The position numbers and the translations under genes are program-made. A stretch of DNA of 64,000 nucleotides from a bacterium (lineage in GTDB: Bacteria > Desulfobacterota > Deferrisomatia > Deferrisomatales > Deferrisomataceae). Under the pieces are notes generated by a model, which did no database searches, was not told the origin of the DNA, and saw only the letters and a program-made list of their open reading frames with translations. This document shows positions 10,693 to 31,018 of this stretch, one piece after another. The stretch's first letter is position 1; each line of letters begins with the position of its first letter. Location: positions 1-64,000 of the forward strand of contig JALUTY010000007.1 of assembly GCA_027021615.1 (NCBI GenBank), given 5' to 3'.

Positions 10693-12717
10693 TCAGTCAC
10701 CGGACGGCGCCAGGAAGAACGCCGCCTGGGCCTGGGCGCCGGAGGTGGCGTTCATCTGGAGGGCGTCGTTGTAAAGGGCCTCCGGGTAGTAGGAGATCCG
10801 CTCCCCGGTCTCGGTGTCTACGGTGGCCGGGCTCAGCAGAAAGCTGTGGACGATGGGCTTGCCGGAAACGCCGTACTGGTAGGCACCGGCGTCGAACGAA
10901 GGGGCACCGGGCACGGTGGAGAAGTCCCCGGAGGCGATCGCCTCCGCGTCGATCGCCTCCGGATCCACCTCCGCGACCTCATCGATCCCGATGCCGCCGA
11001 GGAACGCGCGGCTGGCCACGTCGGTGACCACCGGATCGTCGTAGGCGAACACGGCCAGGAGCTTGTCAGCGGTGTTGTCGTCCCCGATGCCCATGTAGGC
11101 CCCGTCCACCGGGTCCATGAGCCACTGCACGATGTTCAGGAACACGTAGTACTCGGTGGTGCCCTTGGTGAACCCAAGGCTCCCGACCAGGGCCTGGAGG
11201 TCCGGCAGGGAGCTGGAGTCCAGCACGTTGGCCAGGCCTGCCGAAGGGCTGGAAAGGAGGATCTTCTCGGGGCGGTCGTCGGCGTTCAGGAACACCGAGC
11301 CGATGATCGAGCCCAGGGAGTGGGCCACGAAGCGAATGCCCTCGGTCTTCAGGTCTTCATTGTCGTCCCCGTCCAGGTCCACCCGGGCCTCGATCACGTC
11401 CATGGCCTCCCAGAGGTCGATGGCGGCCTGGTACACGTTGGCCCGGTCGGCAAGCATGTTGGCCGTAAAGAACTCCTCTCCTTCGACCGCGCGATCGCCG
11501 TGGAACGGCGCGTCGATCGCAAAGGTGGCGAAACACGCCTTCGCCAGGGAGTTGGCCAGGGCAAAGGCGTCCTCCTTGCTCCGGCCGAGGCCGTGCTGGA
11601 ACAAGACGGTGGCGTAAGGACCGGGGCCGCACGCGTCGGCCGAGGGGGTGAGCACTACGAAGGGAACGTCCGTTCCCGTGGGCCCTTCCTCCGCGCTCAG
11701 CGTGCTCAAGAGCGGGGAGCTGTACTTTCCGAAGTAGACGGAGGAAAGGGCGTCGTTGGGCACGAGCCCGGTGAGCCCGGCCTGGTCCCACACGTCAGAG
11801 GGCGACAGGGGAACCGGGGTTCCGCCATAGCTGCCGTCCAAAGGATTCTGCCACTGCACGGCGTTGGCGGCCGCCGGCCAAAGGCTGGTGGCCCCTTTGA
11901 ACGTGGCCACCGCGGCCTCGAACTGGCTGTAAGGGAGCTCCAAGGCCTCGGGGGTGCCCGCCGTGAGCGCGGCCGTGATCGTCGCTTCGTCCGCCAGCGT
12001 CAGGGTGGAGTCCGCGGTATGGAAGGTCCACAGAAGGAGCACGTCACCCCGGCTCCATCCGAAGTTGCCTTCCAGGGCCGGGAACAGCTGGGCGTCGAAC
12101 CCGGCCCGCAGGTCTTCGAGCCGCTCGAACGCGGTTCCAACCAGAGACTCCTGGCTCTTCAGGGCGTTCATCACCGGGCTGGGCTCCACCGGAAACCCGT
12201 TCTCGTCCAGAAGCCCGGTCCTGACCGCCACAGCGTAGTACCCGCCCGCGGAGAACGGGGTCTTGGGCACCAGCTTGAGAACGCCGTCCTCTTCCACCGC
12301 CGTGAAGTCCGCCTGGGTGCGGGGGGTCTCCTGGGCGTCCAAACGGAACACGTACAGCTGCAGCGTGGACTCGTCCACGGCCCCCGACACCGGAATGGTG
12401 AGGAACATGTTGGGGGAGAGCCCCTGGATCCCGAGGGCCTCGATCACCTGGGCCAGCTGAACCAGGGCCGGATCGGCGTCGGCATCGAGGCTGAGTTCCA
12501 CCTCCGGGTCTCCGTCGGCCAGCCAGACCAGGTCGTTCGGGAGGGGCATGATCTCCTGGGTCGGGTCGTACAGGGCGGTGACCTTCGGGGTGCCCGCCGA
12601 GGTGGTCGGCGTGGATGCAGGTTTCGGCGCCACGTTGTCGTCGGGCGGGGAGCCGCAGGCCGCGAGCGCCAGGGCCGCGGCAACGGGCAATGCGAGCAAC
12701 CGGACCGTTCGTCTCAT
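10693..12717 (-). CDS. VolA-like surface lipoprotein lipase/lysophospholipase
   Basis: 674-aa lipoprotein: signal peptide with lipobox LALAAC (C21). The N-terminal 300 residues resemble the bacterial virulence-factor lipase N domain. An alpha/beta-hydrolase domain follows, with an oxyanion-region FQHGLGRSKED (about 374-383) and nucleophile elbow AHSLGS (S467). In Vibrio, VolA is a surface lysophospholipase encoded beside fadL and feeds fatty acids to it; the same gene pair is seen here. ATG 12717 has GGAGGG upstream. It probably releases fatty acids outside the outer membrane for FadL and the Fad enzymes encoded next to it. Confidence 0.82.
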   Translation of the reverse strand: MRRTVRLLALPVAAALALAACGSPPDDNVAPKPASTPTTSAGTPKVTALYDPTQEIMPLPNDLVWLADGDPEVELSLDADADPALVQLAQVIEALGIQGLSPNMFLTIPVSGAVDESTLQLYVFRLDAQETPRTQADFTAVEEDGVLKLVPKTPFSAGGYYAVAVRTGLLDENGFPVEPSPVMNALKSQESLVGTAFERLEDLRAGFDAQLFPALEGNFGWSRGDVLLLWTFHTADSTLTLADEATITAALTAGTPEALELPYSQFEAAVATFKGATSLWPAAANAVQWQNPLDGSYGGTPVPLSPSDVWDQAGLTGLVPNDALSSVYFGKYSSPLLSTLSAEEGPTGTDVPFVVLTPSADACGPGPYATVLFQHGLGRSKEDAFALANSLAKACFATFAIDAPFHGDRAVEGEEFFTANMLADRANVYQAAIDLWEAMDVIEARVDLDGDDNEDLKTEGIRFVAHSLGSIIGSVFLNADDRPEKILLSSPSAGLANVLDSSSLPDLQALVGSLGFTKGTTEYYVFLNIVQWLMDPVDGAYMGIGDDNTADKLLAVFAYDDPVVTDVASRAFLGGIGIDEVAEVDPEAIDAEAIASGDFSTVPGAPSFDAGAYQYGVSGKPIVHSFLLSPATVDTETGERISYYPEALYNDALQMNATSGAQAQAAFFLAPSGD

Positions 12718-12841: not shown

Positions 12842-14614
12842 TCACCAGATCACGCGCTCCATCTCCACCAGCTTGGCGGCGATGGTCTCCCGGGCGGCCA
12901 CCAGGTTGGCCGGGGTGCGGCGCACCAGCCGGCGAAGCGCCGCCAGCATGGTCATCAGGGTGTCGCCTTCCTCGATGCCGGCCAAGGCCTCCCGGGCCGT
13001 GGCCTCGGCCGTGGCCACGGCCTCCTCGCACACGATCTGGGCCGCGGCGATCGGCAGGGCCAGCTTGTCCTCGCCGCGCTTGGCCGCATCCTTGAGCACC
13101 CGCAACACGGTGGACTCGGCCGCGTAGGCCTGGATGGCCAGGTCGGCGATCCGCAGCAGCACGTTCTGCTGCTCGGCCAGCCCCTTGCCGAACTTCTGGG
13201 CGGCCACGCCGGCCACGAACAGGCAGATCTTCTTGAGGTTGGCCACGAGCCGCTTCTCGGCGTCCAGCAGGCCCAGGTCGGCGTCCATGTCCAGGCTGGG
13301 GATGCCCATCAGCTCCTCCTGCAGGGCCTGGACGGCCTGGAACAGGGGCACCTCGCCCTTCATGGCCTTCCGCAGCAGCATGCCCGGCACCAGGAGCCGG
13401 TTGATCTCGTTGGTGCCCTCGAAGATCCGGTTGATCCGGCTGTCGCGGTAGAACCGTTCGGCCGGGTACTCGGCGCAGTACCCGTAGCCGCCGTAGGTTT
13501 GCACGGTCTGGTCCACCACATAGTCCAGCACCTCGGAGCCGAACACCTTCACGATGGCGCACTCGACGCTGTACTCCTCGATGGCCTTGAGGGCGGCCTC
13601 GTCGTGGCCTCCGCCGCTCAGGGACAGGAGCTGGTCGATCAGGCCCACGGTCCGGTACACCGTGGACTCGGCCGCGTAGGTGTGGGCGTACATCTCGGCC
13701 AGCTTCTCACGGATGGCCCCGAACTCGGCCAGGCGCCGGCCGAACTGCTTGCGCTCCAGGGCGTAGGCCAGGGCGTGTTCCAGGGACCGCTTGGAGCTGC
13801 CCACGGCGCCCGCGCCCAGCTTGAACCGCCCGATGTTCAGGATGTTGAAGGCGATCTTGTGGCCCTTGCCGATCTCGCCGATCACGTTCTCCACCGGCAC
13901 CTGGGCGTCCTCGAAGATCACCGTGGTGGTGGAGGAGCCGTGGATCCCCATCTTGTGCTCTTCGGGTCCGATCTTGAGGCCCGGGGTGGCCTTGTCGAGC
14001 ACGAATCCGGTGAACTGCTCGCCGTCGATCTTGGCGAACACGGTGAACACGTCGGCGAACCCGCCGTTGGTGATGAACTGCTTGGTGCCGTTCAGGATGT
14101 AGTGCTTGCCGTCCTCGCTGAGCACGGCCTTGGTCCGGATGGACAGGGCGTCGGACCCGGCCGTGGGCTCGGTGAGGCAGTAGCACCCCACCAGGGATCC
14201 GTCCGCCAGGCCGGGCAGGTACTTCTTTTTAAGCTCCTCGGTTCCGTAGTACACCAGGGGCAGGGTGCCGATGCCCACATGGGCCCCGAACGCCACGGAG
14301 AACGAGCCCTGGCCCGACATGTTCTCGGTCACGAGCGCGCTGGAGGCCTTGTCGAGGCCCAGCCCGCCGTACTCCTCGGGCACGTCGGCCATCAGCAGGC
14401 CCAGCTCGCCCGCCTTGCGCAGGAGCTCGGGCACCACCCCGGGCTTCTTCTCCTCGATCTCGTCGTTGCGGGGGATCACCTCGTTGTCGATGAAGTCCCG
14501 GGCCGTCTTGGCGAACTGGAGCTGCTCCGAGGTGAAGTCCTCGGGGGTGAACACCTCCTCCGGGGTGGTCTCGCGGACCAGGAAGCTGCCGCCCTTGACG
14601 TAGTTCTCGCTCAT
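12842..14614 (-). CDS. fadE: Acyl-CoA dehydrogenase (FadE)
   Basis: 590-aa flavin enzyme for the first step of beta-oxidation, of the longer VLCAD/ACAD9-like class with an extra C-terminal domain (about 440-590). Motifs: CLTEPTAGSDALS (146-158), TNGGFADVFTVFA (182-194), and QTYGGYGYCAEYPAERFYRDSR followed by IFEGTNEINR with the likely catalytic glutamate near 399-403. No membrane segment is seen. ATG 14614 follows GAGGGAGGATTC. It lies 28 nt after the thiolase gene in the fadN-fadA-fadE order known from Bacillus. Electron-transfer flavoprotein genes are not in the window. Confidence 0.92.
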   Translation of the reverse strand: MSENYVKGGSFLVRETTPEEVFTPEDFTSEQLQFAKTARDFIDNEVIPRNDEIEEKKPGVVPELLRKAGELGLLMADVPEEYGGLGLDKASSALVTENMSGQGSFSVAFGAHVGIGTLPLVYYGTEELKKKYLPGLADGSLVGCYCLTEPTAGSDALSIRTKAVLSEDGKHYILNGTKQFITNGGFADVFTVFAKIDGEQFTGFVLDKATPGLKIGPEEHKMGIHGSSTTTVIFEDAQVPVENVIGEIGKGHKIAFNILNIGRFKLGAGAVGSSKRSLEHALAYALERKQFGRRLAEFGAIREKLAEMYAHTYAAESTVYRTVGLIDQLLSLSGGGHDEAALKAIEEYSVECAIVKVFGSEVLDYVVDQTVQTYGGYGYCAEYPAERFYRDSRINRIFEGTNEINRLLVPGMLLRKAMKGEVPLFQAVQALQEELMGIPSLDMDADLGLLDAEKRLVANLKKICLFVAGVAAQKFGKGLAEQQNVLLRIADLAIQAYAAESTVLRVLKDAAKRGEDKLALPIAAAQIVCEEAVATAEATAREALAGIEEGDTLMTMLAALRRLVRRTPANLVAARETIAAKLVEMERVIW

Positions 14615-14642: not shown

Positions 14643-15827
14643 CTAACGCTGGAGATTCTCGAAGATGCCGGCGGCGCCCATGCCCCCTCCGATGCACATG
14701 CTCACGATGCCGTACCGGGCCTTGCGCCGCTTCATCTCGTGGAGCAGGGTGGCCGTGAGCTTCGCCCCGGTGCATCCCAGGGGGTGGCCCAGGGCGATGG
14801 CCCCGCCGTTCACGTTGACGATCTCCGGGGCGATCCCGAGCTCGCGCACCACGTACAGGCTCTGGCTGGCGAAGGCCTCGTTGAGCTCCACCAGGTCGAT
14901 GTCCTTGAGCCCGAGGCCGGCCACCTTCAGGGCCTTGGGGATGGCCACCACCGGCCCGATGCCCATGACCGCCGGGTCCACGCCGCCCACGCCGAACGAC
15001 ACGAACCGGGCCAGGGGCTCCAGGCCCAGGGCCTGGGCCTTGTCGGCGCTCATCACCACCGAGACGGCCGCGCCGTCGGACATCTGGCTCGAGTTGCCGG
15101 CCGTGACCGATCCGCCCTGGCGGAACACCGGCTTCAGCTTGGCCAGCCCCTCCAGGGAGGTGTTGCGGCGGGGGCCCTCGTCCTTGGCGTGGACGAACGA
15201 GGTCTCCTCGGGTTTTCCGTTCCTGCCGGGCCGGTACCGGGTCACCGGCACGGGCACCAGCTCCTCGTCGAACCGGCCGGCGTCCTGGGCCGCCAGGGCC
15301 TTCTGGTGGCTGGCCAGGGCGAAGGCGTCCTGGTCCTCGCGGCCGATGCCGTAGCGCTCGGCCACGTTCTCGGCCGTGAGGCCCATGTTCAGGTACGAGT
15401 CGGGCACGCTCTGCACCAGGTCGGGGTTCACCATGATCTTGTTGCCGGTCATGGGGACCCGGGTCATGCTCTCCACCCCGCCGGCCAGGACCACGTCGGC
15501 CATGCCGGTCATCACGGCCTGGGCCGCCATGGCGATGGTCTGGAGGCCGGAGGAGCAGAACCGGTTCACGGTCTGCCCCGGCACGGTGTCGGGGAGCCCC
15601 GCCAGCAGCAGGGCCAGCCGGGCCACGTTGAGCCCCTGCTCGGCCTCGGGGAACGCGCACCCCAGGATCACGTCGTCGATCTCGGCCGGGTCCAGGGCGG
15701 GCACCCGCTCCAGGGCCCCCTTGATGGCCACGGCCGCCAGGTCGTCGGGCCGCACGGTGGACAGGGCCCCCTTGAAGGCCTTGCCCACCGGCGTGCGCAC
15801 GCTCGAAACGATCACTGCCTCACGCAT
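14643..15827 (-). CDS. fadA: Acetyl-CoA acyltransferase (thiolase, FadA)
   Basis: 394-aa thiolase that cleaves 3-ketoacyl-CoA in the last step of beta-oxidation. Active-site residues are intact: C91 in [10 protein letters not shown]348 in [15 protein letters not shown], and C378 in [11 protein letters not shown]. The start ATG 15827 has AAGGAG 6 nt upstream. It lies between fadN and fadE on the same strand. The 116-nt gap from fadN holds a short repeat tract but no promoter that I can defend. Confidence 0.95.
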
Positions 15828-15943: not shown

Positions 15944-18349
15944 TCAGTTCCGCAGGGGCTTTCCGGTCTTCAGGATGTGCTGGATCCGCTCCAGGGTCTT
16001 GCGCTGGGCGCACAGCTCCACGAAGCCGCGCCGCTCCAGCTCGAGCAGGTAGTCCTCGGTCACCTCGGTGCCGGCATCCACCTCGCCGCCGCACAGCACC
16101 CAGCCCACCTTCTCGCCCACCACCGCGTCGTACTCGGTGATGAACCGGCCGCTCTTCATGTTGTGAAGCATGGACCGGATGTTCGCCAGGCCGTCCCGGC
16201 CGAGCACCTTCACGGTCTCGGGCCGGGTCAGGGGCTGCCACCCGGTCTCCAGCAGGTCCAGGGCAGCCCGCTTGGCGTCGTGGATTAGGTGCTCCCGGTT
16301 CAGGGTGATCCGGTCGCCCTGGCGCAGGAACCCGAGGTCGAACGCCTCCCGGGCGCTCAGGCTGACCTTGGCCATGCCGATGGCCTCGAACGCCTTGCGC
16401 ACGAACGGCATGGGGTCGGCGCCGGTGCCCTCGGGGTACCGGGCCATCCAGCGCAGGAGCAGCTCCTTGGTGCCGCCGCCGGCGGGCAGCAGGCCCACGC
16501 CCACCTCCACGAGCCCCATGTAGGTCTCGAGGCTGGCCTGGACCCGGTGGCTGTGGAGCACCACCTCGGCCCCGCCACCCAGCACCCGGCCGAACGGGGC
16601 GGCCACCACGGGAACCGGCGCGTACTTCAGGGCCACGGTGGCGTTCTGGAACGCGCGCACCATGGCGTCGATCTCGGGGAGGTTCCCTTCTAGGGCCTCG
16701 AACAGGAGCATCATCAGGTTGGCGCCCACAGAGAAGTTCTCGCCCTGGTTGCCCACCACCAGCGCGTCGAACCGGGTGCCGGCCTCGGCCATGGCCTTGT
16801 GGATCGCCTGCATGATGCCGCCGCCGATGGCGTTCATCTTGGAGTGGAACTCCAGGCAGGCCACGCCGTCGCCCAGGTCGATCAGGCTGGCCTCAGGGTT
16901 GCGGTACCACTCCCGCTCGATGCGCTTGAGGTCGGCCAGAACCACTACCCGCGGCCGGGCCTCAAGGGGCACATGGGCCTTGCGCACGGGGTCCCAGATC
17001 TTCACGTCCAGGCCCTCACGCACGTAGAAGCTCGGAGTGTCGGACCGGGCCAGGGCCACGATGCCCTCGGGCACGTCACGGCCCTCGGCCTGCATTCGCT
17101 CCACGGTCTTCTTCACGCCCAGGGCGTCCCAGATCTCGAACGGGCCGATCTCCCAGCCGAACCCCCAGCGCATGGCCCGGTCCACGCTCGCGACGTCGTC
17201 GGCCACGTCGGGGATCCGCCGGGCCGCGTACAGGAGCGTCTCGGCCGTGACGTCCCAGGCGAACGTGCCGGCCGGGCCCTTATCGAACACCAGCCGGGCC
17301 ACCCGGGCCCCGGGCTCCTCGACGTTCTTGACCTCGGCGAGCACCGGGAAGTTCGCCTTTTCCTTGGGCCGGTACTCCAGGGTGGCGGGGTTGATGACTA
17401 GGGTGGTCTTCTTGCCGTTCTCCTTGACCCGCTTGTAGAAGCCGGCCTTGGCCTTCATGCCCAGCAGGCCCTTCTCGATCATGCTGCCGAGCCAGGCCGG
17501 GATCTCGAACACCTCACGGCGTTCGTCGTCGGGCGCGCCCTCGTACTGGGTACGTGCCACGTGGGCGAGCACGTCGAGCCCCACCAGGTCGGCCGTGCGG
17601 AACGTGGCCGACTTGGGCCGGGCCAGGGCCGTGCCGGTCAGGGCGTCTACCTGCTCCACGGTGAGGCCGTGCTTCTCCATGGCCCGCAGGGTGTAGAGCA
17701 TCGAGAAGATCCCGATACGGTTGGCAATAAAGTTGGGGGTGTCCTTGGCGAACACCACCCCCTTACCGAGGCGTTTCTCGGCGAAGGCCGCGAACTCCCG
17801 CAGCAGCCCCTCGTCCGTGGTCCGAGCAGGGATCAGCTCGAGCAAGTGCATGTACCGGGGCGGGTTGAAGAAGTGGGTCCCGAAGAACCGGGGCCGCAGG
17901 GCCTCGGGGAGCGCCTCGGCCATGGCGTTCACCGAGAGCCCCGAGGTGTTGGTGGTGAGCAGGGCCCCGTCCTTGACGTGGGGGGCCACCCGCTCGAACA
18001 GCGAGACCTTGATGTCGAGCCGCTCGACCACGGCCTCCACCACCCAGTCCACGTCGGCGAGCTTGTCGAGGTCGTCCTCGAAGTTGCCCGGGGTCACGAG
18101 CCGGCCGAGGGACCTGTGGGCGAACGCGGCCGGCTTGGCTTTGAGCGCGTTCTCCAAGCCCTTGCGCGCGAACCGATTTCGCACCTCGGGGGAGTCCAGG
18201 GTCAGGCCCTTCTTCTTCTCGTCGTCGGTGAGCTCCTTCGGCACGATGTCCAGGAGCAGGGTGGGGATGCCGGCGTTGGCCAGGTGGGCCGCGATGGCGC
18301 TTCCCATCACGCCGGCACCGAGCACGGCAGCCTTACGGATTGGGGGCAT
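15944..18349 (-). CDS. fadN: 3-hydroxyacyl-CoA dehydrogenase/enoyl-CoA hydratase (FadN-like)
   Basis: 801-aa bifunctional beta-oxidation enzyme. The N-terminus has the NAD-binding GAGVMGSAIAAHLA (11-24) and the HAD catalytic region (FFGTHFFNPPRYMHLLELI). The C-terminal domain (about 480-700) is crotonase-like, with LEFHSKMNAIGGGI and PFGRVLGGGAEVVLHSH. The domain order is dehydrogenase first, hydratase last, as in Bacillus FadN and unlike E. coli FadB. ATG 18349 follows AAAGGAGGTAG. The operon order fadN-fadA-fadE also matches Bacillus fadNAE. Confidence 0.93.
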   Translation of the reverse strand: MPPIRKAAVLGAGVMGSAIAAHLANAGIPTLLLDIVPKELTDDEKKKGLTLDSPEVRNRFARKGLENALKAKPAAFAHRSLGRLVTPGNFEDDLDKLADVDWVVEAVVERLDIKVSLFERVAPHVKDGALLTTNTSGLSVNAMAEALPEALRPRFFGTHFFNPPRYMHLLELIPARTTDEGLLREFAAFAEKRLGKGVVFAKDTPNFIANRIGIFSMLYTLRAMEKHGLTVEQVDALTGTALARPKSATFRTADLVGLDVLAHVARTQYEGAPDDERREVFEIPAWLGSMIEKGLLGMKAKAGFYKRVKENGKKTTLVINPATLEYRPKEKANFPVLAEVKNVEEPGARVARLVFDKGPAGTFAWDVTAETLLYAARRIPDVADDVASVDRAMRWGFGWEIGPFEIWDALGVKKTVERMQAEGRDVPEGIVALARSDTPSFYVREGLDVKIWDPVRKAHVPLEARPRVVVLADLKRIEREWYRNPEASLIDLGDGVACLEFHSKMNAIGGGIMQAIHKAMAEAGTRFDALVVGNQGENFSVGANLMMLLFEALEGNLPEIDAMVRAFQNATVALKYAPVPVVAAPFGRVLGGGAEVVLHSHRVQASLETYMGLVEVGVGLLPAGGGTKELLLRWMARYPEGTGADPMPFVRKAFEAIGMAKVSLSAREAFDLGFLRQGDRITLNREHLIHDAKRAALDLLETGWQPLTRPETVKVLGRDGLANIRSMLHNMKSGRFITEYDAVVGEKVGWVLCGGEVDAGTEVTEDYLLELERRGFVELCAQRKTLERIQHILKTGKPLRN

Positions 18350-18410: not shown

Positions 18411-19019
18411 TCATTCGGAGCGAGAGGGTGCGCGGATGCCGTTCAGGATCAGGTCGATGATCGGCTCGGCCTTGGGCTTGAGGGGGCCCCGCCGGGGGTT
18501 CAGAACCCAGGCCGACACCGTCTCGTCGATGGTGCCGAACAGGGCCCGGCGCATCACCCGGGTGGGGATGTCGGTGCGCACCAAGCCCGCCGACTTGGCC
18601 TCTTCCAGGACCTCCTCGATCTTCCGGGCATAGGCCCGCAGGGGGCCCGCGATGGCCTGGCGGATCGATGCGTCGGGCTGGCGGAGCTGCAGCTGGAGGA
18701 ACGCGGCCAGCTCCGGGTCCCGCTCCATCACCTCCAGGTGACGTTCCACCAGGCAGCGGATCTTTTCGAGGGGGTCGCCGAGCGAGGCCAGGTCCTGGTC
18801 CAGCTCTTCGAGGATGCCCTGCAGGACGTGCCGAAAAGCGCACACCAGCAGGTCCTCCTTGCCTTTGAAGTACAGGTAGATCGTTCCGTCGGCCACGCCG
18901 GCCTGTCGGGCCACCTGGGCCACGGTGCACTGGTGGTACCCGTGGCGGCTGAAGGCTCGGACCGCAGCCTCCAGGATCTGACGTTCCCGCTCGACCTTGC
19001 GTTGGTTTGCAGCGGCCAC
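18411..19019 (-). CDS. TetR-family regulator (FadR type)
   Basis: 202-aa TetR/AcrR repressor with N-terminal helix-turn-helix CTVAQVARQAGVADGTIYLYFKGKEDLL and a larger helical ligand-binding domain. GTG 19019 is chosen: it lies 2 nt after the fadD stop with AGGAGG just before it, which suggests coupled translation. Its position between fadD and fadN, and two TGAATGA-type palindromes at the promoter of this operon, match the fatty-acid-responsive FadR of Bacillus and Thermus. The ligand is probably an acyl-CoA. It would repress its own operon. Confidence 0.88.
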   Translation of the reverse strand: MAAANQRKVERERQILEAAVRAFSRHGYHQCTVAQVARQAGVADGTIYLYFKGKEDLLVCAFRHVLQGILEELDQDLASLGDPLEKIRCLVERHLEVMERDPELAAFLQLQLRQPDASIRQAIAGPLRAYARKIEEVLEEAKSAGLVRTDIPTRVMRRALFGTIDETVSAWVLNPRRGPLKPKAEPIIDLILNGIRAPSRSE

Positions 19020-19021
19020 CC

Positions 19022-20815
19022 CTAACCCTCCTCGTACAAGGCTTCGAGTTCTTTCTTGTAGTGCTCGGTGATGATCTTCCGGCGCATCTTCAGAGTGGGG
19101 GTCACTTCGCCCTGATTGGCAGCGAACTCGTGGTCCAGCAGCACGAACTTCTTCACCGACTCGTACGAGGCCAGGTGGGCCTTGTGCTGGGTCTCCTGGA
19201 TCAGGCGATGGTAGAAGTCCCGGACCTGCGGATGGGCGACCAGGTCTTTGGGGGAGGAGTAGGAGATACCCTTCAGCTGGGCGTAGCGTCTGAGCCACTC
19301 GAAGTCGGGCACGATCAAAGCCGAGATGAACTTCTTTTTGTCGCCGTAGAGCATCACCTCCGAGATGTACTTGCTCATCTTCAGGATGTTCTCGACCTTC
19401 TGGGGCGCCACGTTCTTGCCGCCGGCCGTGACGATCAGGTCCTTCTTGCGGTCGGTGATCCGCAGGAACCCCTTGCGATCGAGCTCGCCGATGTCCCCTG
19501 TCATGAAGAACCCGTCGGCGGTGAACACCTCGCGGGTCTTCTCCTCGTCCTGGAAGTACCCCGGGAACACGCTGGGCCCCTTGACCAGGATCTCGCCGTC
19601 ATCCGCGATCTGGACCTCCAGGTTCGAGAGCACGGGTCCCACGGTGCCGATCTTCCACCGCTTCGGGGTGTTCACCGCGATCACCGGCGAGGTCTCGGTG
19701 AGGCCGTACCCCTCGTAGATCCGGATGCCCATGGCCAGGAACGCCTTGGCCAACTCGGGGGAGAGCGGCGCGCCGCCCGAGATGAAGAACCGCATCCGTC
19801 CACCCAGCCGGTGGCGGATCTTCGAGAACACGATCCGGTCGGCGACCACGTATTTGAGCTTGAGCCCCGGGGGTAGGGGCTTCTTCCGGGCCATGACCTC
19901 CCCGGCCTCGCGAGCCACCTTGAGGGCCCAGAAGGTGAGCACCCGCACCGGGGCCGGTGCCGCGGCCGCCTTGGCCTGCACGCCCGCATACACCTTCTCG
20001 AAGATGCGCGGCACACTCACGGCCACCGTGGGTCGGACCTCGCCGAAGTTGTCGGCCACGGTCTGGATGCTCTCGGCGTACCCGACGGTGGCGCCGGTGT
20101 AGAGCATGAGGTAGTACCCGGCCATGCGCTCCAGAATGTGGGCCAAAGGAAGGTGGGCCAGATGCACGTCGTTGGGGCCGATGTCGAACTCGGCGAGCGA
20201 GGCCTCGACGTTGGCCGTGATGTTGCGGTGGGTGAGCATCACCCCCTTGGGCTCGCCCGTGGTGCCCGAGGTGAAGATGATGGTGGCCACGTCGTCCGGC
20301 TTCAGGGCGGCCAGGCGCTCGTCCACCACCGACGCGTCCACCTCGTCGCCCCGGGCGGCCAGGGCCTCCAGCGACACCACGTCGGGCCGGTCGATGCCTT
20401 GGATCGCCTCGGGCTCGAACACCACCAGAAGCTCCAGCCCGGCCACCTGGTCGAGAAGGGGCAGGCACTTGACCACCTGCTCGGTGTCCGACACGAACAG
20501 CACGCGGGTGCCACTGCGCTCAAGCAGTTTCTTCACCTCGGGCTGGGTGAGCGAGGGGTACAAGGGCACGCACACCGCCCCTGCGGTCAGGATGCCGGTG
20601 TCGGCCACGGCCCACTCATACCGGGTGTGGCTCAAAATGGCCGCCCGGTCGCCGGGCTGGATGCCCCGGCCGGCCAGGGCCCGGGCGACGCGGGTGGCGA
20701 GGGTGTAGTACTCGCCCCATGTGACCTCTTGATATGCACCCTCCCGCTTCACCAGAAAGCAGCGGTTGCGGGTCCACCGATTGTGGCGTTCGAGGATCAT
20801 CTGGGGTAGGGTCAT
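19022..20815 (-). CDS. fadD: Long-chain acyl-CoA synthetase (FadD)
   Basis: 597-aa AMP-forming ligase that activates long-chain fatty acids with ATP and CoA. Signatures: P-loop TIIFTSGTTGEPKGVMLTHRN, YEGYGLTETSP, GFFMTGDIGELDRKGFLRITDRKKD (adenylate binding and hinge) and GGKNVAPQKVEN. The length fits the 600-aa FadD15-like group. ATG 20815 follows GGAGAAGG; an upstream frame of 79 extra codons crosses the promoter and operators and is not real. First gene of the fad operon. Confidence 0.93.
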   Translation of the reverse strand: MTLPQMILERHNRWTRNRCFLVKREGAYQEVTWGEYYTLATRVARALAGRGIQPGDRAAILSHTRYEWAVADTGILTAGAVCVPLYPSLTQPEVKKLLERSGTRVLFVSDTEQVVKCLPLLDQVAGLELLVVFEPEAIQGIDRPDVVSLEALAARGDEVDASVVDERLAALKPDDVATIIFTSGTTGEPKGVMLTHRNITANVEASLAEFDIGPNDVHLAHLPLAHILERMAGYYLMLYTGATVGYAESIQTVADNFGEVRPTVAVSVPRIFEKVYAGVQAKAAAAPAPVRVLTFWALKVAREAGEVMARKKPLPPGLKLKYVVADRIVFSKIRHRLGGRMRFFISGGAPLSPELAKAFLAMGIRIYEGYGLTETSPVIAVNTPKRWKIGTVGPVLSNLEVQIADDGEILVKGPSVFPGYFQDEEKTREVFTADGFFMTGDIGELDRKGFLRITDRKKDLIVTAGGKNVAPQKVENILKMSKYISEVMLYGDKKKFISALIVPDFEWLRRYAQLKGISYSSPKDLVAHPQVRDFYHRLIQETQHKAHLASYESVKKFVLLDHEFAANQGEVTPTLKMRRKIITEHYKKELEALYEEG

Positions 20816-20826
20816 GGGCCTTCTCC

Positions 20827-20844
20827 TGAATGAATGTTCATTCG
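20827..20844. promoter_or_regulatory. FadR-like operator O2
   Basis: TGAATGAATGTTCATTCG, an almost perfect match to the Bacillus FadR consensus TGAATGAnTAnTCATTCA as I recall it. It lies just downstream of the predicted transcription start and 12 nt before the fadD start codon. Confidence 0.8.
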
Positions 20845-20852
20845 GGGACGAA

Positions 20853-20881
20853 ATGCTAGATGAATGAGCCCTCAATGTCAA
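20853..20881 (-). promoter_or_regulatory. sigma70-type promoter of the fad operon
   Basis: On the minus strand TTGACA (20881-20876), a 17-nt spacer, then TAGCAT (20858-20853). The -35 is perfect and the -10 matches 4 of 6. Transcription should start near 20846, placing operator O1 over the spacer and O2 over the first transcribed bases. Confidence 0.8.
20861..20878. promoter_or_regulatory. FadR-like operator O1 (degenerate)
   Basis: TGAATGAGCCCTCAATGT: one perfect TGAATGA half-site and a weaker second half. It overlaps the spacer and -35 of the fadD promoter, where a bound repressor would block RNA polymerase. Confidence 0.6.
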
Positions 20882-21050
20882 CCCAAGTAAACTGGGTTTT
20901 GGGGAAAAGTCCAGAGGTGAATTTCGGGGACCGAAAACCATTTGGAATTTCGACAAAATCCACTGAAGCCAAAGGGAGCGTCCTCTCTCGGCCCGGCCTT
21001 CAGGAGGCTCCGGGGGGAAACCGAGACATCGTTCCCGGGAGGTAGCAGCC

Positions 21051-22169
21051 ATGGCGTCCGGAGTTCGGGTTGCGTTGGTTGAGCCGTTTTTCGGGGGAAG
21101 CCATCGGGCCGTGGCCGGGGGCTGGATTCGTCACACGCGGCACCAGGTTTGGCCGTTCACCCTGCCGCCCCGGTTCTGGAAGTGGCGCATGCGGGGCGCG
21201 GCCTTTGAGATGGCGAGGAACCTGTCGGCACGGGCGGGAGAGTGGGACGTGGTGTGGGCCACGTCGCTCATGGACGTGGCCCACCTGCGGGCGCTGCTCC
21301 CCCGGAGAGTCCCTACGGCCGTCTACTTCCACGAGAACCAGGTGGCGTATCCTCCCCGGCCTGGCGAGGACCCGCCGGAGCGGGACCTCCAGTACGCCTT
21401 CACGAACCTGGCCAGCGCCCTGGCCGCCGATCGGGTGCTGTTCAACTCGGCTTTTCAGCGGGATGCCTTTCTGGCAGGACTGTCGGCGCTCGTCCGGCGC
21501 ATGCCGGATGCCCGGCCCCGGTGGGCCGTGGACGCGATCGCGGAGAGGTCCGAGGTCCTCTGGCCCGGTGTGGAACTCGCGGACGTGCCGGCTCCCTTCC
21601 CGCGGCTGCCCGGCCCGCTCACCATCCTGTGGAACCACAGGTGGGAGCACGACAAGGCCCCGGAGGTGTTCTTCGGGGCTCTGATGTCCCTAGCGGACGG
21701 GGGGGTTCCGTTCCGGCTGGCCGTGGCAGGGGAGCGGTTCGGACGGATGCCGCCCGTGTTCGGGCAGGCCAGGGAGCGGCTGGCCGATCGGATCGTACAT
21801 TGGGGGTATTTGAAGGACCGGCGGGAGTACGCCGGGTTGCTGGCCCGATGCCAGGTGGTGGTGAGCACCGCGCGTCAGGAAAACTTCGGGATCAGCGTGA
21901 TCGAGGCGGCCTACGCCGGCGCCCACCCCCTGGTGCCCGCCCGCCTGGCCTATCCCGAGGTGGTGCCGGAGCCGTTGCGGGAGCGGTGTCTGTGGCAGGA
22001 CCCGGCCGACCTGCGCCACCGGCTGCGAGCTCTTTGCCTGGGAGTGGAAAAGCCACTAGATCCCGCCGTGTTACGTGAAGCATTCTCGCGGTATGCGTGG
22101 GAGGAGCGCGTAACGGCGTTTGACGATACCGCGCTGCGCCTTTCCGGTTTGGCCGGAGATGTGGTATAA
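21051..22169 (+). CDS. Glycosyltransferase, tRNA-queuosine mannosyltransferase-like
   Basis: 372-aa GT-B glycosyltransferase. The N-terminal half (VALVEPFFGGSHRAVAGGW, WDVVWATSLMDVAHLRALLP, VYFHENQVAYP, RVLFNSAFQRDAF) is the former DUF3524 domain, now known from animal GTDC1/QTMAN, which mannosylates queuosine in tRNA. The C-terminal half has the family 4 nucleotide-sugar site (WNHRWEHDKAPEVFF, then STARQENFGISVIEAAYAG). The bacterial substrate is not certain. ATG 21051 follows GGGAGGTAG. It stands alone and is transcribed away from fadD. No queuosine synthesis gene is in the window. Confidence 0.8.
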   Translation: MASGVRVALVEPFFGGSHRAVAGGWIRHTRHQVWPFTLPPRFWKWRMRGAAFEMARNLSARAGEWDVVWATSLMDVAHLRALLPRRVPTAVYFHENQVAYPPRPGEDPPERDLQYAFTNLASALAADRVLFNSAFQRDAFLAGLSALVRRMPDARPRWAVDAIAERSEVLWPGVELADVPAPFPRLPGPLTILWNHRWEHDKAPEVFFGALMSLADGGVPFRLAVAGERFGRMPPVFGQARERLADRIVHWGYLKDRREYAGLLARCQVVVSTARQENFGISVIEAAYAGAHPLVPARLAYPEVVPEPLRERCLWQDPADLRHRLRALCLGVEKPLDPAVLREAFSRYAWEERVTAFDDTALRLSGLAGDVV

Positions 22170-29693: not shown

Positions 29694-30086
29694 CTACCGC
29701 GGCTCGGGTGTTTGTCCAGCCTCGGGGGGCAGGTCCAGCATCTCCCGAACCACGGCCGTTAGCTGATCGAGCCGGAACGGCTTTCCGAGAAATCGATCGG
29801 CGCCTGCTCGCACGGCGCGCTCCGGGACGTCCGGGTGGACCTCCACGGAGATCACCAGGATGGGAACGGTGCAGGTCTCGGGTTGGCGTCGCAGCTCCCG
29901 GATCAGGGAGAAGCCGTGCTCCTCCGGCATCACGAGGTCGGTTACAACCAGGTCGAACGGACCGGGCCGGCGCAGGGCCTGAGCGGGGTTGGCGGCCTCG
30001 GCGATCTCGAGACCGAAGGACCTCTCGAGAACGGTGCCCACGATCTCGCGGATCGTGGAGGAGTCGTCCACCACCAGCGCTCTCAA
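29694..30086 (-). CDS. Single-domain response regulator (CheY-like)
   Basis: 130-aa receiver domain without an output domain. Acidic pocket VVDDSS (D7, D8), phosphoacceptor D50 in VVTDLVMPE, and the conserved lysine in LGKPF (K102). TTG 30086 is the only suitable start, behind AAGGGGGAACG; it overlaps the stop of the upstream hydrolase gene. The kinase partner is not in the window. It may pass a signal by protein contact. Confidence 0.88.
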   Translation of the reverse strand: MRALVVDDSSTIREIVGTVLERSFGLEIAEAANPAQALRRPGPFDLVVTDLVMPEEHGFSLIRELRRQPETCTVPILVISVEVHPDVPERAVRAGADRFLGKPFRLDQLTAVVREMLDLPPEAGQTPEPR

Positions 30087-31018
30087 GGTCGTTCCCCCTT
30101 GCGGATGTGCGGGATACCCGGGTCGGGCGCGTTCTCCTCTGTTGCCGGATCGGCCCTAGATGACGGTCTCTTGAGCCCCGCGGTCCTTCCGGAAGGGGGA
30201 CCGGAAACGAGGTCGAGGAATCTCTCCCACGCATCCCAGTAGGCGTCTCCCCCTACGAAGGCGGGGTCGTCGTGGCCAGCCCCGACCACGGTGCGAAAGG
30301 TCTTGGGGCCTGCATAGTGATCGTACACCCGCCACGCCATGCCGATGGGCACCACCCGATCCTTGTCCCCGTGAAGGAACAAGGCAGGCACCTTTTGGCG
30401 GGCGGCAGCCGCCAGATTGTCCCACATCTCGACCAGCCTGCGGCGAAACGGCCAGGACAACAACGGGTAGTGGAGCCGGGCCAACTCCTCGACCCGCGTG
30501 AACGTCCCCTCCAGCACGAGCCCGTCCGGAGCGTACCGGAGGGCGGCGTGGAGGGCCACGGCGGCGCCAAGGCTGCGCCCGAAGAAGACCACGGGTCCCC
30601 GCACCCGGCTGCGAGCCTCCCGAAGTGCACAGCCGGCGTCCCCGACCAGACCCGGCTGGGAAGGACGTCCCGAGCTGGTGCCATACCCCCGGTACTCCAA
30701 GGCGAGAATCGGCAGTCCCAGCCGCTCGGCAAACCGCTGGATCAGGTCCACCCGGTCGGACAGGCCCCCGGCGTTTCCGTGCAGGAAGACGATGGCAGGT
30801 CCGTCCCGCTTGCCGGGGATCCACCACGCGTGCAGACGCGTGCCGTCATCCGCCTCCAGCGTCAGATCCTCGTAGTCCACCCCACGGGACGCGGGCGTGG
30901 CCGCAGAGGTGGAGCGGGGCTGGTACACCCAGCTGTCCACCCATCGTCCGCATCCATTCAGGAGCAGCGCCAGGCTTAGCGCCCCCAACGAAAGGGCAAG
31001 CAGCGATCCCTGGATCAT
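30083..31018 (-). CDS. Alpha/beta-hydrolase lipoprotein (BEM46-like)
   Basis: 311 aa from ATG 31018. The N-terminal hydrophobic segment ends in LALLLNGC, a probable lipobox. The hydrolase fold shows FLHGNAGGLSDR (oxyanion), YRGYGTSSGRPSQPGL, the nucleophile elbow FFGRSLGAAVA, the acid in HGDKDRVVP, and the histidine in VGAGHDDP. It resembles the BEM46/ABHD13 group of serine hydrolases with unknown substrates. A longer frame from 31207 would overlap the divergent SNF2 promoter region and is not used. It is coupled to the receiver gene by 4 nt. Confidence 0.8.
   Translation of the reverse strand: MIQGSLLALSLGALSLALLLNGCGRWVDSWVYQPRSTSAATPASRGVDYEDLTLEADDGTRLHAWWIPGKRDGPAIVFLHGNAGGLSDRVDLIQRFAERLGLPILALEYRGYGTSSGRPSQPGLVGDAGCALREARSRVRGPVVFFGRSLGAAVALHAALRYAPDGLVLEGTFTRVEELARLHYPLLSWPFRRRLVEMWDNLAAAARQKVPALFLHGDKDRVVPIGMAWRVYDHYAGPKTFRTVVGAGHDDPAFVGGDAYWDAWERFLDLVSGPPSGRTAGLKRPSSRADPATEENAPDPGIPHIRKGERP

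Follow-up and report, generated by a model that had tools for sequence, protein, structure and literature searches.

A predicted FadR operator on the promoter of a fatty-acid degradation operon in the Deferrisomataceae, and the wider occurrence of its box in the Desulfobacterota

The fad operon and its promoter

The window, by which we mean the whole 64,000-nucleotide stretch that was analysed (contig JALUTY010000007.1, positions 1 to 64,000), carries a putative operon with the gene order fadD-fadR-fadN-fadA-fadE-lipase. Its genes and the elements predicted upstream of fadD are as follows.

20876..20881, minus strand: -35 element TTGACA, from the promoter scan; position kept across families
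20861..20878, minus strand: degenerate operator-like site ACATTGAGGGCTCATTCA, 11/14 match, within the -35/-10 spacer
20853..20858, minus strand: -10 element TAGCAT after a 17-bp spacer, from the promoter scan; TAG kept in most relatives
20827..20844, minus strand: main FadR-type operator (predicted) CGAATGAACATTCATTCA, 13/14 fixed positions of the Bacillus FadR box
19022..20815, minus strand: fadD (Pfam AMP-binding 6e-85; NCBIfam FadD families)
18411..19019, minus strand: fadR, TetR-family FadR (YsiA-like), GTG start at 19019, ~202 aa (structure, Pfam and NCBIfam matches)
15944..18349, minus strand: fadN-type 3-hydroxyacyl-CoA dehydrogenase/enoyl-CoA hydratase, 801 aa (Pfam 3HCDH_N/3HCDH/ECH)
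14643..15827, minus strand: fadA thiolase, 394 aa (NCBIfam acetyl-CoA C-acyltransferase 483 bits, cutoff 240)
12842..14614, minus strand: fadE acyl-CoA dehydrogenase of the Bacillus type, 590 aa (NCBIfam AcCoDHFadEBacil 865 bits, cutoff 600)
10693..12717, minus strand: lipoprotein with similarity to VolA/Pla-1 lipase, end of the putative operon (NCBIfam TIGR03502 1.6e-25, below cutoff)

The operon thus encodes its own TetR regulator as the second gene (18411-19019), as an earlier sequence-only reading of the window had stated, and the lipase-like lipoprotein gene is found at the equivalent place in the genomes G006, G007 and G008. Read along the minus strand, TTGACA (20881-20876) is followed by the 17-bp spacer TTGAGGGCTCATTCATC, by TAGCAT (20858-20853), by 8 bp and then by the palindrome CGAATGAACATTCATTCA (20844-20827), which is joined through GGAGAAGGCCC to the fadD ATG (20815), with a GGAG between the palindrome and the start codon. 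TTGACA-17-TAGCAT is the sole promoter found by the scan in 20700-21100 (10/12 matches, against a mean of 0.1 in shuffles); the description of it as a consensus promoter directed toward fadD fits the -35 element; the -10 element matches at 4/6 positions.

The palindrome differs by one mismatch at the 14 fixed positions of TGAATGAnnnnTCATTCA, the 18-bp FadR box of Bacillus, and occupies roughly the positions +1 to +18 relative to the fad promoter, where it abuts the Shine-Dalgarno sequence of fadD; the earlier placement of a Bacillus FadR box right after the predicted start was thus confirmed. Base composition predicts 2e-5 sites as good as this one in the 235-bp intergenic region, a site of this quality arose in 2e-4 of Markov-1 resamples of that region, and a motif scan of the 4.25-Mb genome returned it as the sole site with at most one mismatch.

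A Bacillus-type FadR and its conserved box

The TetR regulator encoded in the operon is orthologous to the FadR of Bacillus. It aligns with the B. subtilis protein (PDB 3whb/1vi0) over residues 5-191 with an E value of 6e-42, and its best structural matches are all FadR proteins of B. subtilis or B. halodurans (1vi0, 3whb, 5gp9 and 5gpa; E 6e-42 to 2e-38), whereas the best non-FadR structure reaches 6e-15. Pfam assigns it a TetR_N domain (2e-17) and the 'YsiA-like' TetR_C_4 domain (1.7e-27), and the NCBIfam profile FadR-Bacillus (NF053878) scores 190.6 bits, with a cutoff of 200. Membership of the PsrA, FadP or GntR-type FadR groups was rejected, the PsrA profile giving 23.7 bits against 190.6 for FadR-Bacillus, and no GntR or FadP match was listed among the NCBIfam profiles. 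The recognition motif [VI]ADGT[ILMV]YLY is present in nearly all of the 39 aligned FadR orthologues and missing from three paralogues in the alignment, and the recognition helix of the window protein is the same as that of Bacillus FadR. A recent transfer of the operon from Bacillota was also considered and is unsupported by the tree, in which the FadR proteins of this order stand apart from those of Bacillus, the root being unsure.

Box and regulator occur together throughout the class and well beyond it. FadR is encoded in 10 of the 12 genomes of the class, and all ten of these carry the box with zero or one mismatch in the same promoter register; the two genomes lacking FadR contain no box with up to one mismatch. 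The register of -35, -10, box and start is common to four families although the flanks diverge, and in eight of the ten genomes the box runs directly up to the ribosome-binding site of the leading gene; in G001 and G002 it heads a fadR-fadN operon. All 38 distinct orthologue loci inspected had a box adjacent to fadR (10/10 in the class, 20/20 further loci in the phylum, these being scored at up to two mismatches, and 8/8 others). Nine of the 20 further phylum loci have the box after fadR and before an acyl-CoA dehydrogenase gene, and the remaining eight, five of them with a perfect box, belong to Acidobacteriota, Myxococcota, a Paenibacillus and an unclassified MAG. Of the 297 phylum genomes compared, 125 encode FadR orthologues; perfect boxes were found in 66/125 genomes with FadR and in 7/172 genomes without it (Fisher p = 4e-23, a value which is optimistic because the genomes are related), while a mirrored control pattern occurred in 2/297. 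An exact TTGACA stands 28-44 bp before 65 of 84 distinct perfect boxes, against a background of 1.7% at random positions, and the box is therefore mostly an operator downstream of a promoter, as in the window. The sequence-only reading had remarked on a Bacillus box in a distant phylum; this is true of the phylum, but the pair is no isolated transplant, since FadR and its box are common there and are also found in Acidobacteriota and Myxococcota.

Two variations on the arrangement were seen in relatives. In G011, which belongs to another family than the window genome, a second FadR box with two mismatches lies 43 bp upstream of fadE within the fad operon (L074, 7145-7162). Three loci of family f45 (L091, L105 and L107) carry the variant boxes TGACTGAnnnnTCACTCA, which suggests that the fourth position of the box has drifted together with the FadR of that family.

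These data bear directly on the other ways in which the palindrome might be explained. That it is a chance occurrence we regard as next to impossible: its shortness is all that speaks for this, the local probability is about 1e-4 or less, and conservation across families and phyla refutes it. The palindrome might instead control the divergent gene for a QTMAN-like glycosyltransferase (21051-22169), with which fadD shares the intergenic region and which is kept as a neighbour in seven genomes examined; the box is, however, placed on the fadD promoter, and in G001 and G002 it accompanies a leading fadR with no QTMAN gene found alongside, so that such a role appears extremely improbable. It is also very unlikely, to us, that the box belongs to another TetR protein with FadR as a mere neighbour. 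Seven genomes have perfect boxes with FadR undetected, which would fit that idea, but several of these are incomplete MAGs from genera in which sister genomes do encode FadR, the recognition helices of the paralogues differ, and the box tracks fadR through differing gene orders (fadD-fadR, fadR-fadN and fadR-etfBA).

A separate matter is the degenerate copy in the promoter spacer, ACATTGAGGGCTCATTCA, which lies 34 bp from the main box, centre to centre, and has three mismatches with one perfect half-site (TCATTCA). Sites as good as this are expected 0.006 times by composition in the 235-bp intergenic region and appear in 1.1% of resamples, so it is unlikely by chance, yet the figure is not decisive. 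Both sites could be real operators, with FadR bound, perhaps with cooperativity, at the start site and in the spacer and repression tightened as a result. This is a possibility that we hold only tentatively and incline against: the perfect half-site, the position inside the promoter, the low chance expectation of about 0.006-0.011 and the occurrence elsewhere in the phylum of paired perfect boxes at fadN, separated by 57-66 bp, argue for it, while 3/14 positions are mismatched and, beyond this genus, the spacer is free of such a site with the main box kept. In the class the spacer site is confined to the three genomes of the window's genus, and their identity at the site is uninformative because the flanks are identical too. 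The copy is thus located in the -35/-10 spacer as the sequence-only reading had it, but the operator role is weakened by its being seen only in this genus, where it may provide a weak second FadR contact.

Extent of the predicted regulon and boxes at energy-metabolism genes

Within the window genome the FadR regulon looks local and limited to the fad operon. Sites with up to three mismatches number 17, against nine for the mirrored control, and among these 17 hits, most of whose contexts were inspected, no fatty-acid gene carries a box besides the fad promoter. The expectation that a motif scan would reveal further sites near fatty-acid genes thus failed in this genome at up to two mismatches; it is borne out in relatives, where 23 of 28 loci with perfect boxes have the box 24-123 bp upstream of fadR or fadN (13 at 24-93 bp from fadR and 10 at 38-123 bp from fadN). 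The one other site of the genome with up to two mismatches, a two-mismatch site at C21:57675 before a gene for a 1663-aa cytochrome/TSP3 lipoprotein, was discarded as a candidate target, as such sites are no more frequent than in the mirrored control. Another candidate was the gene of a 383-aa 4Fe-4S protein, at which four members of the class (G001, G002, G006 and G007) have a FadR box.

L127:9091-10242, and in the window's own genome G000:C62 about 29871-30998: 4Fe-4S protein gene, conserved

This weak second target is common to same-genus genomes and degenerate in the window genome, whose orthologue keeps only a four-mismatch remnant, and it was rejected as a second target there. In G003, a genome of the same order as the window, a perfect FadR box (L128, at 8105; G003:C82:16104) overlaps the start codon of a PAQR/hemolysin III gene (TrhA), a gene of membrane homeostasis.

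In other lineages of the phylum the box is found at genes of energy metabolism. All five perfect boxes of three species from another genus (G012, G051 and G086) stand at orthologous places: one separates sat from aprB, three precede cbiA-dsrC, hdrCB and fadR-etfBA, and the fifth lies between folD-cooC-acsD and folC (folC, cooC and etfBA were named by eye from the sequence). Alignments of these sites show the box conserved amid variable flanks, with variation also in its four central bases; four of the five sites, all but the one at folD, also retain TTGACA and the -10 region. Its position between sat and aprB suggests that sulfate activation may be under acyl-CoA control. The site in question, at 3001 in L173, L178 and L184 (G012, G086 and G051, respectively), is perfect, has a TTGACA promoter and separates divergently oriented sat and aprB.

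Other families show boxes in the same layout before F-type ATP synthase operons, rnfABC, V-type ATPase, Mrp antiporter, Tmc and folD-cooC-acsD genes. In G096 and G061, two genera of one family, perfect boxes with TTGACA lie upstream of F-type ATP synthase operons (atpA and atpB; L214, L215, L224 and L225), and G096 has further boxes at rnfABC (L216) and V-type ATPase (L217). A perfect box precedes folD-cooC-acsD (Wood-Ljungdahl) in two families (L177, L180, L186 and L211), and in G014 boxes lie near acsD (L145), a NuoF-like gene (L188) and an RnfC-like gene (L189). In two genomes boxes were also located about 0.7-1.8 kb ahead of dsrAB, and in a further one next to hdrC, with no exact TTGACA at the expected distance there. 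Nearly all boxes at energy genes follow the order TTGACA, -10, box.

This pattern suggests that FadR may have become a wider energy-metabolism regulator in fatty-acid-oxidising anaerobes. We lean, with moderate confidence, to the reading that in several lineages of the phylum the box has spread from beta-oxidation to energy genes (sat/aprB, cbiA-dsrC, hdrCB, folD-cooC-acsD, tmc, mrp, rnfABC and the F-/V-type ATP synthase operons), and that an acyl-CoA-sensing FadR would there induce, as one regulon, the entire life style of anaerobic fatty-acid oxidation, by sulfate respiration or syntrophy. No description of a FadR box at energy genes was found in the literature searched, which was covered in part.

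Proposed mechanism and relation to known systems

For the window itself, the palindrome at 20827-20844 is very probably the operator of the FadR encoded in the same operon, through which repression of the fad operon would be released by acyl-CoA. The explanation is founded on the sequence, the orthology, the conservation of the box, its promoter register and its co-occurrence with the regulator; FadR binding, the acyl-CoA ligand and repression as the sign of control we infer by homology to B. subtilis. When long-chain acyl-CoA is absent, a FadR dimer would occupy +1 to +18, immediately after the -10 element, and block the promoter or the first elongation step, so that expression of fadD-fadR-fadN-fadA-fadE(-lipase) would be low. 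FadD would turn incoming fatty acids into acyl-CoA, which would bind the C-terminal domain of FadR and release it, turning the operon on, and fadR would set its own level. On the simplest reading, FadR at +1 to +18 would repress sterically, acyl-CoA would be the inducer and the operon would be autoregulated.

The window finding is a well-supported further case of the known Bacillus-type FadR switch, and its main interest lies in the phylum-wide use of the box-on-promoter module. The pair of regulator and box is kept almost letter for letter in Bacillota, Desulfobacterota-like lineages, Acidobacteriota and Myxococcota; in contrast, surveys of Proteobacteria give other regulators for fatty-acid degradation. 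The box can serve as a searchable marker in uncultured fatty-acid oxidisers, and searches with it suggest that fatty-acid sensing may be tied to how sulfate reduction, Rnf and ATP synthase are controlled, a connection that can be tested.

The closest known system is FadR (YsiA) of Bacillus subtilis, likewise a TetR-family protein, homologous over its full length and acting at the 18-bp box TGAATGAnnnnTCATTCA on the promoter. Among the operons that it represses are lcfA-fadR-fadB-etfB-etfA and fadN-fadA-fadE, targets which correspond to those seen here (lcfA/fadD-fadR and fadN-fadA-fadE), and C14-C20 acyl-CoA causes its release (PMC4525379). The window differs in its phylum, in having the two Bacillus operons joined as one with a lipase added, in lacking fadB-etfBA inside the operon, and in a regulon seemingly limited to that operon. 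The FadR proteins of Thermus thermophilus and Sulfolobus belong to the TetR family too and regulate fatty-acid genes in response to acyl-CoA (PMC5597230, PMC6449355), but the similarity of the window protein to Thermus 3ANG is much weaker (E 6e-13) than to the Bacillus proteins. PsrA, FadP and the GntR-type FadR of Proteobacteria control fatty-acid degradation as well and belong to other families or subfamilies (PMC5343134); that survey gives Deltaproteobacteria orthologues for only five of its 33 regulators, and Bacillus-type FadR is not listed in it. From the same broad group as the window genome, the accessible text of PMC5109826 describes, with no mention of an operator, FadR2 of Desulfococcus multivorans, a TetR-type protein of a fatty-acid gene cluster which was detected in myristate-grown cells.
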